Positions 1 through 64,000 of a stretch of DNA of 64,000 nucleotides are shown here, one piece after another. Position numbers and translations under genes: made by a program. Below the pieces are notes generated by a model, which did not search any database, was not told the origin of the DNA, and was given only the letters and a program-made list of their open reading frames with translations. Source of the DNA: Pontibacter arcticus (GTDB taxonomy: Bacteria; Bacteroidota; Bacteroidia; Cytophagales; Hymenobacteraceae); assembly GCF_003284895.1 (NCBI RefSeq), contig NZ_QMDV01000005.1:1-64000 (forward strand), written 5' to 3'. Position 1 is the stretch's first letter. Each line of letters begins with the position of its first letter.

Positions 1-599
1 TTTCACCGCTGACTTAACGGGCCGCCTACGCACCCTTTAAACCCAATAAATCCGGACAACGCTTGCACCCTCCGTATTACCGCGGCTGCTGGCACGGAGT
101 TAGCCGGTGCTTATTCATCAGGTACCGTCAGTTACTCTCGCAAGAGCGTTTTCTTCCCTGATAAAAGCAGTTTACAACCCAGAAGGCCTTCATCCTGCAC
201 GCGGCATGGCTGGGTCAGTCTCTCGACCATTGCCCAATATTCCCTACTGCTGCCTCCCGTAGGAGTCTGGTCCGTGTCTCAGTACCAGTGTGGGGGACCA
301 TCCTCTCAGAACCCCTAGCCATCGTCGCCTTGGTGGGCCGTTACCCCGCCAACTAGCTAATGGCACGCATGCCCATCTTCTATCGCCTCAGCTTTAACCA
401 TATCCCGATGCCAGGTCATGGTGTTATGCGGTATTAATCTTCCTTTCGGAAGGCTATCCCCCAATAGAAGGTAGGTTGCATACGCGTTACGCACCCGTGC
501 GCCACTAAACCAAGAACCGAAGCTCTTGATCTCGTTCGACTTGCATGTATTAGGCCTGCCGCTAGCGTTCATCCTGAGCCAGGATCAAACTCTCCATTG
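1..599 (-). rRNA. rrs: 16S ribosomal RNA, 5' part (3' part beyond the window)
   Basis: Read on the minus strand this is the first ~600 nt of a bacterial 16S rRNA. It begins near the start with GAGAGTTTGATCCTGGCTCA and continues with GATGAACGCTAGCGGCAGG. It reaches the universal 515-536 site (GTGCCAGCAGCCGCGG) near window position 85. The 338 region (revcomp of gctgcctcccgtaggagt) is at about 249-266. The rest of the molecule lies left of position 1. The AATACATGCAAGTCGAACG start and the overall sequence are typical of Bacteroidota. The 5' end is placed by analogy with other 16S genes, within a few bases. Confidence 0.97.
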
Positions 600-910
600 T
601 AAAAAAATTTTAAATGTGTCTGTCCGATCCCGGCCTTTTTCCTTTTCTCCGAAGAGAAACTAAGCAGGTGATCTTTTCAAATCAGCCTGCCCGGATTTAC
701 CTATTCTTTTTCTTTATTCTATCTTAAGCAATCACTCAAAGAACTTACCTAGAACCTGTTGTTCTAGCCTGTCATCTTTCGATGTTTTTCCGTTAGCACT
801 CTCTGTGCCGTGGAACAAAGGTCGGTAGTTATTTTCTAACTTCCAAACTTTAATTGATTTATTTTTAAACTTTCTTTTTTCGCTTCCGTAGCCCTGTCAG
901 CTACGTTTGC
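600..910 (-). other. 16S rRNA leader with hairpins and a boxA-like site
   Basis: Transcribed leader between the tandem promoters and the mature 16S. On the minus strand 736-745 reads AGTTCTTTGA, close to the boxA antitermination element of rRNA leaders. Next to it is a perfect 7-bp inverted repeat at 749-767 (CTAGAAC/GTTCTAG, 5-nt loop). A second 6-bp hairpin lies at 887-905 (CGTAGC/GCTACG). Processing and antitermination roles are inferred from position and family knowledge. No protein-coding signal is seen. Confidence 0.6.
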
Positions 911-916
911 GGAGTG

Positions 917-61575: not shown

Positions 61576-61607
61576 TTTGATGCTCTTTTATAGTTTATAC
61601 TATAGAA

Positions 61608-64000
61608 TTAATTTCTCAGCGGCTTGCCTGTTGTCAGGATGCTCTGGATACGCTCCAGTGTTTTGCGCTCACCTGTTAATGATAAGAAGGCTTCGCGTTC
61701 CAGATCCAGCAGGTATTGTTCGCTTACTTCGGTTGGGGCAGATAAATCGCCACCGCACATTACATAAGCTAACTTTTGAGATATTTTCAGGTCGTGTGCT
61801 GACATGTAGCGGCCTGTATACATCGCGTTTGCACCTGTCAGGAACATACCCAATGCGCCTTGGCCCTGTACTTTGATGTTGGTGCGCTCTACTGGTCTGC
61901 TGTAACCTGCTTCGGCCATAAGTATAGCCTGCGCTTTGGCATCAGCTATCAGACGATTACTATTAATTGTAATGCCATCAGATTTGCGCATAAAGCCTAA
62001 GTCCACCGCTTCTTTAGCCGACGTAGAAACTTTTGCCATACCGATGTTCAGGAACACGTTTTTCAGGTCGTTGTACTCGATGTCGCCTTCGGCATACATA
62101 TCGGCAGCACGCAGCGTCATTTCTTTTGTACCGCCACCGCCTGGTATCAGGCCAACACCAAACTCAACCAAGCCCATGTAGGTTTCAGCAGATGCCTGTA
62201 TATGATCGCAATGTAAATTCAATTCGCAGCCACCACCCAGTGTTAAGCCGTGCGGTGCGCCTACTACAGGTATAGCCGAGTAGCGCATGCGCATCATGGT
62301 GTTCTGGAACTGGCGGATGATCATGTTCAGTTCGTCGAAATCCTGATCCAGCGCATACATGTAGATAAGGCCCACGTTAGCACCGGCAGAGAAATTAGCT
62401 GCATCGTTACCAACTACCATCCCACGGAAATCTTTTTCAGCCAGCTCGATCCCTTTGTTCAGGGCCATGATCACATCGCCGCCCATGGTGTTCATCTTCG
62501 TATGGAACTCCACATTCAGGATACCATCGCCCAAGTCAAGTATAGTAGCGCCGCTGTTTTTCCAGATAACCTTATTGCCACGCAGGTTTTCAAGGATAAT
62601 GAAGTTCTCAGCACCAGGTATGGCTTTGTATTCTTTGGAGTTGATGTCGTAATAGCGGCGTTGGCCGTTCTCTACGATGTAGAAAGACTCTTTGCCGCTT
62701 TCCAACATTTCCTGTACCCAGGCTGCTGGCTGATAACCGGCTTCGGTCATGCGCTGCACACCTTCGCGGGCACCAATGGCATCCCAGTACTCAAACGGAC
62801 CCAGTTCCCAGCCGAAGCCGGCACGCATGGCATCGTCTATTCTGTATAGTTCATCCGAAATCTCAGGTATGCGGTTGCTCACGTACTGGAACAAACCGTA
62901 AAGCGACTCATTTAAGAACTGTGCTGCTTTATCTTTCTGGCCGGAGAAGGCTTTGATGCGTTTCTTCAGGTCTTCGATCGGCTTTAACACTTCCAGACTC
63001 TGGAACTTGGCTTTCTGCTTTGGTCCGTACTCCAGCGTATTTAAGTCCAGCGTCAGAATCTCGGTTTTGCCGTTCGCATCTTTTGTCTTTTTGTAGAAAC
63101 CTTGTCCGGATTTATCGCCCAGCCATTTGTTATCTACCATTGTCTGCAGGTAAGCAGGCAGCTTAAACAGCTCACGCGATTCGTCTTTTTCGCCGGTCTG
63201 GTACAAGCCGTTGGCCACATTCGCCAGCGTATCCAAACCAACTACATCCAGCGTTCGGAACGTTGCAGACTTCGGGCGACCGATGATCGGGCCGGAGATT
63301 TTGTCTACCTCGTCTACGTTCAGGCCCAGTTTGTTCATTACCTGCAGGCCTTGCATAATGGCGTAAATACCAACCCGGTTTGCAATAAAGGCAGGCGTAT
63401 CTTTAGCCAGTACAGTTGTCTTTCCTAAGTATAAATCCCCGTAGTGCATTAGGAAATCCACTACACTTTGGTCCGTTTCCGGCGTAGGAATTATCTCGAG
63501 AAGTTTTAAGTAGCGCGGCGGGTTAAAGAAGTGCGTACCGCAGAAGTGCTTTCTGAAATCATCCGAACGGCCATCCAGCATCAAATGAATCGGAATACCG
63601 GATGTGTTAGAAGAGATCAGCGTACCCGGCTTGCGGAATTGCTCCACCTGGTCGTACACAATTTTCTTGATCTTCAGGTTCTCTACTACTACTTCGATGG
63701 TCCAGTCGGCAGTAGCAATATCCTTCATGTTATCCTCGAAGTTACCTGTTTTGATCAGGCTTGCATCTGCTTTGCGGTAGATCGGCGACGGGTTAGAAAC
63801 AATCGCGGCCTGCAGTGCATTATTTACAATGCGGTTACGAACGGCTTTGCTTTCCAGCGTCAGGCCTTTCTTTTCTTCGTCGGGCGTTAGTTCTTTCGGG
63901 GCTATGTCCAGCAGCAACACCTGTACGCCAATGTTGGCGAAGTGGCAGGCAATACGCGAACCCATCACGCCGGAACCTAATACCGCTACTTTTTTAATTA
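61608..64000 (-). CDS. fadN: 3-hydroxyacyl-CoA dehydrogenase / enoyl-CoA hydratase fusion (FadN-type), 5' end outside
   Basis: At least 797 codons; the frame stays open to the right edge, where it reads IKKVAVLGSGVMGSRIACHF. The true start is therefore a few codons beyond 64000, and the GTG at 63968 inside the Rossmann motif is not the start. N-terminal NAD-binding domain (GSGVMGS), C-terminal 3HCDH region (~160-330), then an enoyl-CoA hydratase domain (~460 onwards: VVGAPHGLTLGGGCELNLHC, GVGLIPGGGGTKEMTLRA). This domain order is that of Bacillus FadN, not of E. coli FadB. Hydrates and oxidises enoyl-CoA in beta-oxidation. Confidence 0.94.
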   Translation of the reverse strand, partial: IKKVAVLGSGVMGSRIACHFANIGVQVLLLDIAPKELTPDEEKKGLTLESKAVRNRIVNNALQAAIVSNPSPIYRKADASLIKTGNFEDNMKDIATADWTIEVVVENLKIKKIVYDQVEQFRKPGTLISSNTSGIPIHLMLDGRSDDFRKHFCGTHFFNPPRYLKLLEIIPTPETDQSVVDFLMHYGDLYLGKTTVLAKDTPAFIANRVGIYAIMQGLQVMNKLGLNVDEVDKISGPIIGRPKSATFRTLDVVGLDTLANVANGLYQTGEKDESRELFKLPAYLQTMVDNKWLGDKSGQGFYKKTKDANGKTEILTLDLNTLEYGPKQKAKFQSLEVLKPIEDLKKRIKAFSGQKDKAAQFLNESLYGLFQYVSNRIPEISDELYRIDDAMRAGFGWELGPFEYWDAIGAREGVQRMTEAGYQPAAWVQEMLESGKESFYIVENGQRRYYDINSKEYKAIPGAENFIILENLRGNKVIWKNSGATILDLGDGILNVEFHTKMNTMGGDVIMALNKGIELAEKDFRGMVVGNDAANFSAGANVGLIYMYALDQDFDELNMIIRQFQNTMMRMRYSAIPVVGAPHGLTLGGGCELNLHCDHIQASAETYMGLVEFGVGLIPGGGGTKEMTLRAADMYAEGDIEYNDLKNVFLNIGMAKVSTSAKEAVDLGFMRKSDGITINSNRLIADAKAQAILMAEAGYSRPVERTNIKVQGQGALGMFLTGANAMYTGRYMSAHDLKISQKLAYVMCGGDLSAPTEVSEQYLLDLEREAFLSLTGERKTLERIQSILTTGKPLRN

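Follow-up and report, generated by a model that had tools for sequence, protein, structure and literature searches.

The chromosomes of many members of the genus Pontibacter (Bacteroidota) carry a short, highly iterated motif that is established as DNA-level, genus-specific and divided into dialects. It was analyzed in a 64,000-nt stretch of Pontibacter arcticus (positions 1 to 64,000 of contig NZ_QMDV01000005.1, hereafter the window), in the rest of that genome and in related genomes, which are identified by our own labels (G001, G021 and so on). In the window the complete word is asymmetric, AAGTATRV. By analogy the motif may work like a DNA uptake sequence (DUS), a reading to which we give close to even chances.

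The window holds 74 copies of AAGTATA and 94 of its complement TATACTT (168 in total), together with 68 of AAGTATG/CATACTT, a variant that a sequence-only reading of this DNA had described as common. These 236 AAGTATR sites, counted on both strands of positions 1–64000, are distributed over successive 8-kb blocks as 34, 35, 30, 29, 24, 27, 35 and 21. The same reading had estimated about 32 copies of AAGTATA or TATACTT in positions 1–10,920, where 33 were counted, and a similar density up to the right edge, which agrees with the 21–35 AAGTATR sites in each block. Trained on the window itself, a third-order Markov model predicts 33 copies of AAGTATA where 168 were seen. AAGTATAAA was seen 79 times against 5.0 expected. 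AAGTATA is followed by A at 113 of its 168 sites and by T at only 6. In a 484-kb sample of genomes with the same dialect (dialect A), AAGTATAA occurred 606 times where 28.6 were expected, G was tolerated at position 7 (8-fold), changes at positions 4–6 gave at most 2-fold enrichment, and a weak flanking signal was gone about 1–2 bases beyond the 8-mer. The palindromic double copy AAGTATACTT occurs four times in the window, at 5521–5530, 36768–36777, 42826–42835 and 55664–55673, each start within 1 base of the position given earlier (about 5522, 36769, 42826 and 55665); AAGTATAA occurs at 113 sites. The palindromes are a minor by-product of the asymmetric word, which is not a palindromic word of the type of the cyanobacterial highly iterated palindrome 1 (HIP1).

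Maximal-order Markov models were unsuitable because the sub-words of the motif carry it and so mask it, and lower orders were used together with synonymous-codon shuffles. Shuffling the 41 open reading frames (ORFs) of at least 150 aa in the window (200 shuffles) gave 19.7 ± 4.2 AAGTATR (maximum 34) against 159 observed (z 33.5). Control words in the same shuffle showed no such excess (AACTATR 9 vs 11.2; ATATGAA 3 vs 9.9). The excess recurred for AAGTATR in G021 (595 vs 102, z 53.7), AGGTATR in G009 (98 vs 12.1), AACTATR in G018 (92 vs 17.1), GGGTATR in G036 (59 vs 14.0) and CTATATR in G069 (60 vs 13.0), and that of AAGTATR was weak in the motif-poor genomes G026 and G025 (15 vs 9.0 and 20 vs 11.3). 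A quarter of the ATA codons (70/281) and of the AGT codons (35/139) of the window ORFs lie wholly inside the motif, and AGT-ATA encodes four of the six Ser-Ile pairs of the M61 gene, as had been stated. When the samples of the 20 dialect-A genomes, the window among them, are pooled, the motif occupies all three phases on both strands, which bears out the claim that coding copies occur in every phase; one of the six phase-strand classes was empty in dialect C. Motif density in noncoding DNA was 1.8 times that in coding DNA in dialect A, 2.3 times in dialect B and 3.2 times in dialect C. Because synonymous shuffles, phases, strands and noncoding density agree, the signal acts at the DNA level, in accordance with the earlier statement that selection or bias falls on DNA and not on protein.

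Same-strand pairs of motif sites within 60 bases were about twice as frequent as expected in dialect A (379 vs about 176). Inverted pairs as terminators were rejected, since no strong class of opposite-strand pairs was found other than the palindrome offset. The words TCAGGTCG/CGACCTGA occur at 17 places in the window against 0.9 expected (for example 26025, 53291 and 61416). CAGGTCG was rejected as a second DNA motif; its excess is probably a codon-pair preference, because its flanks are 3-periodic across the genus.

The whole 3.77-Mb genome contains 8,844 copies of AAGTATA/TATACTT (4,403 + 4,441) and 429 of the reversed word (209 + 220); the motif is therefore not confined to the window, a possibility that the sequence-only reading had raised against itself. 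Across 36 members of the genus, AAGTATAA was counted 260 to 7,030 times per genome and controls 80 to 336 times, while in 22 genomes of other families in the order its counts were at or near those of the reversed control. Relatives were sampled as a recG-anchored 20-kb block from each of 49 genomes (14.6 kb in one) plus extra stretches, a total of 2.47 Mb with the window and parts of named records. By this measure 41 of 50 genomes of Pontibacter, a genus within which a genome named Botryobacter ruber falls, carry the motif in some dialect and nine lack a strong one. A further count, of ARSTATRA, covered 120 genomes from the family (44 Pontibacter and 76 of five other genera), and the highest ratio to the reversed control among the 76 was 1.83 (G097). 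No word of comparable strength was found in 12-kb samples of six of these 76 or in 22-kb samples of four Adhaeribacter and six Rufibacter genomes, which leaves room for longer or rarer words; as a positive control, 12-kb samples of three carriers revealed their word at once. The comparison with family relatives that had been suggested thus set the genus apart. A 12-kb sample of G074, from another genus of the family (L237), showed CCTAGG, often as ACCTAGG, 26 times against 3.9 expected with both strands of the palindrome counted, and this is possibly a separate iterated word. The motif-poor Pontibacter genomes tend to be larger (4.9–6.5 Mb vs a median of 4.6 for the 41 others), a relation that rests on 4 independent contrasts and reached no significance. 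No earlier report of the Pontibacter motif was found among the matches listed in the open-licence PMC literature.

Unbiased ranking of 8-mers showed that many species have another word in place of AAGTATAA. Dialect classes, assigned by eye from this ranking and checked with a table of the 64 trinucleotides preceding TATR, were AAGTATR (dialect A) in 20 genomes, AGGTATR (B) in 12, AACTATR (C) in five, AAG and AAC in similar strength in two (G027 and G032), (G/A)GGTATR in G036 and NTATATR in G069; the TATR core is common to all. Mixed states extend beyond the two double-dialect genomes: AAG and AAC were enriched 5.8- and 5.2-fold in G071, AAC 8.3-fold and AAG 3.4-fold in G065, and AAC 2–3-fold in several dialect-A genomes. 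G036 showed GGG at 4.0 with AGG, ATG, CGG and TGG at 2.1–2.8, and G069 showed CTA at 4.5, ATA at 3.4 and TTA at 2.9. Weak signals were present among the nine motif-poor genomes (AAC 2.8 and AAG 2.1 in G007, 2.4 and 2.1 in G025, AAC 2.2 in G002 and 1.9 in G033). In G013 the TAC and TAG counts are inflated by locus L034 (C1:1-20000), where words such as TAGTATAG and ATAGTATA are enriched at least 20-fold in what we take to be a local tandem repeat. On a tree built from 3,658 protein columns without an outgroup, the dialect labels required nine changes (minimum 6; shuffled mean 26.5) and the AGG group formed one side of a fully supported branch. Because AAG occurs at three separate places on this unrooted tree, it is probably the ancestral dialect.

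Individual sites were conserved, as the sequence-only reading had proposed to check. In nine pairs of closely related carriers, some genomes of which belong to two pairs, the fraction of motif sites shared at aligned positions was 0.87, 0.84, 0.78, 0.84, 0.82, 0.78, 0.81, 0.61 and 0.87 against 0.73, 0.72, 0.66, 0.64, 0.56, 0.56, 0.48, 0.46 and 0.47 for permuted words, so that the motif exceeded its control in every pair. Sharing in the motif-poor pair G025/G064 was 0.59 vs 0.58, on 10 and 7 sites. Replacement of one dialect word by another at homologous places was observed in ten codon-aligned genes: AAGTATR of dialect A reads AGGTATR in dialect B in 657 of 5,462 comparisons (12.0%), against 2.3% of 12,941 for control words, and AACTATR in dialect C in 314 of 2,423 comparisons (13.0%), against 0 of 1,611 for controls. 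The AAG word was unchanged in C genomes in 20.1% of comparisons vs 17.8% for controls. No P value is attached to these counts because comparisons across related genomes are not independent.

Across 21 blocks of the G021 chromosome, distributed over 4.98 Mb, motif density ranged from 1.75 to 3.3 sites per kb. The inspection of strand and chromosomal distribution that had been recommended thus showed an even density and no replication-strand bias (529 sites on the G-rich strand vs 488 on the other in the 21 blocks). Slight clustering was indicated by a coefficient of variation of the gaps of 1.1 in the window and 1.3 in G021. The longest AAGTATR-free gap in the window, start to start, is 45466–47559 and holds a ribonuclease E/G gene (45523–47127, minus strand). 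Ten motif-free stretches longer than 3 kb were found where 0.63 were expected; one is masked sequence and one starts at a block edge. Ten ORFs in or at long gaps comprised conserved genes (ftsZ, ftsA, an ATP synthase subunit and lon), two transporters (an RND pump and a Na/H exchanger) and accessory genes (two glycosyltransferases, a TonB receptor and a PKD surface protein).

Second contigs of three carriers behaved differently from the chromosomes of the same genomes. Those of G021, G020 and G001 (74, 204 and 116 kb long; 72 kb sampled in all) contained 36 AAGTATR against 23.4 expected, near chance, whereas the chromosomal excess was 8.9-, 5.6- and 6.9-fold (420, 20 and 20 kb sampled). Every sampled 12-kb piece of a second contig lay below all sampled 12-kb chromosomal blocks of its genome (62, 3 and 3 overlapping blocks). 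The under-representation on mobile DNA that marks uptake sequences was accordingly seen on these three second contigs, one of which has plasmid genes. The G021 contig carries relaxase, ParA-type ATPase and ArdC genes, and a recent arrival is possible because its G+C content is lower than that of the chromosome (0.44 vs about 0.52). Any mutational or methylation cause acting throughout the cell would need to account for these near-chance contigs, the alternative being that they arrived recently. The second contig of motif-poor G002 had 7 sites vs 2.3 expected in 8 kb. The G001 contig also encodes a member of the chloramphenicol acetyltransferase family (PF00302; L315:4465-5259). In the genome of the window (G000), contig C6 shows equal matches at 24129/98466 and 4104/78441; as these lie 74,337 bases apart, the contig appears to be a circular element assembled twice, and it carries a PF01555 methyltransferase in a 700-aa frame.

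If the motif works like a DUS, a putative sequence-specific receptor at the cell surface would bind AAGTATR, or the dialect of its own species, on free DNA, and this DNA would enter through ComEC with a presumably periplasmic helix-hairpin-helix (HhH) protein. Homologous recombination would then swap the chromosomal allele, so that motif-bearing alleles spread and are kept (molecular drive). A shift of receptor specificity at positions 2–3 (AG to GG, AC or TA), with the TATR core retained, would convert near-matches in place and produce a new dialect, and loss of specificity would let the motif decay. The receptor, the uptake bias and the drive are what we infer. The uptake reading is favored because the dialects share a core, sites are conserved in position, words are replaced in place, second contigs are near chance, and ComEC and the HhH protein are present; the comparison with uptake sequences made in the sequence-only reading became the best fit once relatives had been examined. 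We would put it less strongly, as a tentative possibility, that Pontibacter has a sequence-specific DNA-uptake system without type IV pili, whose putative receptor changed specificity several times in the genus (AAG to AGG, AAC, GGG and NTA ahead of TATR) and in other cases lost it, the chromosomes being rewritten site by site.

ComEC was found in all 50 genomes, with an internal stop in G009 (G009:C76:160505-161305) and G022 and a shorter, 561-aa frame in G018 (G018:C23:51507-52310). G009 and G018 are both motif-rich, and their ComEC defects are perhaps recent losses or sequencing errors. An HhH_3-repeat protein of 304–346 aa was intact in 49 of 50 genomes and fragmented in G022; it is taken as periplasmic, by analogy, because a Riemerella protein has the same domain. 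According to passages of PMC8459023, transformation of Riemerella anatipestifer needs ComEC, DprA, ComF, RecA, an HhH-domain protein and additional proteins without a known function; a unique machinery is what the authors propose. DUF5689 is present in an essential Riemerella uptake protein, and was rejected as the Pontibacter receptor since it does not track the motif. Translations read by eye suggest that two loci of its ~1,280-aa class (L164 and L155) encode secreted nucleases and that a ~420-aa locus (L143) adjoins a SusD-like gene. Likewise dropped was an ORF of 269 aa that lies upstream of ComEC and had looked disrupted in G022, because it overlaps a longer conserved frame on the opposite strand and has no family match. 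In the window, a comM-type gene (Mg-chelatase-like ATPase; PF01078, PF13541 and PF13335) is present at 19102–20640 on the plus strand, as had been noted. It may belong to the proposed pathway, as the only such gene among the window genes examined, and by itself proves nothing. A gliding and repair block at 43675–55292 contains gldB, the ribonuclease E/G gene, a mutY-type gene, a CNNM/CorC gene that we take to be gldE-like, gldD and recG; for most of these genes a homologue is present in the recG block of almost every one of the 50 genomes.

A number of results weigh against an uptake function. None of the 50 genomes was found to encode a full-length type IV pilus ATPase of family PF00437 (PilB/PilT/GspE); they gave only short matches to the P-loop part (at most 25.9 bits, three passing the 24.9-bit cut-off), although 13 of 14 control genomes passed. 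A type IV pilus with a DNA-binding minor pilin is accordingly not indicated on the evidence of PF00437, the pilins themselves not having been searched; the known receptor class is missing, and if the motif is an uptake signal its receptor would be of another kind. The motif is not filed as a DUS or uptake signal sequence (USS), since the genomes lack the pilus ATPase and an uptake role is only inferred. Pili are not absent from the whole phylum, since type IV pilus-type homologues are mentioned for Flavobacterium johnsoniae in a passage of PMC7965970. The nine motif-poor genomes still hold ComEC and the HhH protein, DUF5689 (22 of 50 genomes) does not correlate with the motif, and no uptake experiment in Pontibacter was found in the literature searched. 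The second contigs may be recent arrivals, no regular spacing was seen in the window or G021, and the AAG word was unchanged in B genomes in 7.4% of comparisons, below the 11.3% of controls. Further difficulties come from G022. Compared with its sister G034, this genome has ComEC split over two frames with stops and the HhH protein over three; neighboring genes are intact, as are all ten that were checked in its recG block. G022 keeps the motif at 4.1-fold, the lowest value in its 12-genome clade (others 5.6–12.3, with G020 at 5.6 despite intact genes). It retained old sites as control words did (21/29 vs 62/85), and motif and control were not separated in the other genomes either. Private gains were zero in G022 and likewise in G020 and G023, and transition neighbors expected as decay intermediates were not raised in G022 or elsewhere. 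As a natural experiment G022 is suggestive at most.

Other explanations were weighed on the same observations. The motif could be the binding site of an abundant chromosome-organizing protein of drifting specificity, with selection on folding or segregation keeping thousands of sites. The even density and absence of strand bias in G021, the conservation of sites and the higher density in noncoding DNA would suit such a protein, but nine of 50 genomes manage without a strong motif, second contigs within these cells show near-chance density (though possibly recent arrivals), and the site-specific organizers MatP, SlmA, Noc and FtsK/KOPS use far fewer or polar sites. We consider this explanation unlikely. 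It is improbable that a DNA methyltransferase, through a repair or selection effect, makes and keeps the motif, with dialects following methylase specificity. HIP1 is indeed highly iterated, and its alternate forms correspond to methylases, as passages of PMC4390886 describe, but the Pontibacter word is asymmetric and contiguous and the second contigs lack it. PF01555 went unmatched in 19 of 50 genomes, the strong carriers G014, G018 and G023 among them; PF02086 matched in only 13 of 50; PF07669 matched in 47 but not in the carriers G022 and G036; and PF02384 passed the cut-off in all 50, but in dialect-A G006 and G061 only by 22–23-bit partial matches (frames of about 290–390 aa) of a kind that occurs in many of the 50 genomes. 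None of these four N6-methyladenine families is thus convincingly common to all carriers, PF00145 and others not having been searched. 5-Methylcytosine is unlikely for the NTATATR dialect because its core has no G or C. The density part of the HIP1 comparison drawn in the sequence-only reading therefore held, and palindromy and the methylase link did not.

A functionless ratchet of context-dependent mutation or mismatch repair, converting near-matches into the motif, was also put forward in that reading and seems about as improbable as a methylase. One-mismatch transition neighbors were not in excess, the T4-to-C neighbor was depleted in all four samples (33/65, 128/151, 19/36 and 104/166 seen/expected), as conversion of near-misses would also produce and of no help to the uptake reading, and AGATATAG in dialect B was seen once against 12 expected. 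The motif and its 18 one-mismatch neighbors together still exceed expectation (3,054 vs 1,844 in G021), so that simple conversion of neighbors cannot supply the excess and a strong ratchet fed from further words would be needed; moreover, three carriers have second contigs that share the cytoplasm with the chromosome and show near-chance density. We give slightly less weight still to the idea that an enzyme of the RecBCD/AddAB type reads the motif as a Chi-like mark for recombination or self DNA. Chi sequences are species-specific, asymmetric and iterated, but no replication polarity was seen in the one genome analyzed for it, G021. The idea that base composition, codon use or amino-acid sequence produces the motif as an artefact can practically be dismissed: enrichment of about 2-fold in some motif-poor genomes would fit it, but it is refuted by the synonymous shuffles, the Markov models, the noncoding density and the changes of dialect.

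If the uptake reading is correct, Bacteroidota would have its first uptake-sequence system here, as far as the literature was searched. A genus of this phylum with several dialects, two-dialect intermediates, repeated losses and no pilus ATPase would point to a new DNA receptor or another reader, and offers a clean comparative system for the origin, switching and disappearance of self-recognition words. Dialect versions at the same places in related species resemble, by analogy, a self-recognition tag for DNA exchange, and the motif is a possible marker of foreign DNA in Pontibacter genomes.

Dialected, highly iterated words are known so far from Neisseriaceae and Pasteurellaceae, where they serve uptake, and from cyanobacteria (HIP). 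In common with DUS and USS, the Pontibacter motif is an asymmetric word iterated on both strands, in genes and gaps, with invariant-core dialects and conserved sites. The USS of Pasteurellaceae is an asymmetric, iterated word that also begins AAGT and has lineage-specific types; its sequence is otherwise unrelated, and the Pontibacter word shows no flanking extension. The USS receptor is reportedly sought among type IV pilins. Chi shares the iterated, species-specific and asymmetric character and differs in that the word lacks replication polarity in G021. Cyanobacterial HIP1 and its alternates are likewise highly iterated, and other words replace HIP1 in some species (passages of PMC4390886), but HIPs are palindromic and tied to methylases, whereas the Pontibacter word is asymmetric and tracked by no methylase family searched. 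Riemerella columbina also belongs to Bacteroidota, and according to parts of PMC7965970 its own genomic DNA competes in transformation and other DNA much less; its most frequent listed words there are A-rich runs, whose role the authors left open. The DUS of Neisseriaceae differs in several respects: Pontibacter is a member of Bacteroidota without a full-length PF00437 ATPase, which makes a route through the pilin ComP unlikely, its word is shorter (7–8 bp) and denser, and an uptake role for it is proposed by analogy. The likeness is nevertheless close. DUS are present in thousands of copies of a short word, with shared-core dialects that follow phylogeny, as described in parts of PMC3630211. 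Mobile elements of Neisseriaceae have atypical DUS distributions (passages of PMC7371117), comparable to the Pontibacter second contigs, and the genome of Simonsiella muelleri holds two DUS dialects (parts of PMC3630211), as do the two-dialect genomes of Pontibacter with their own words.

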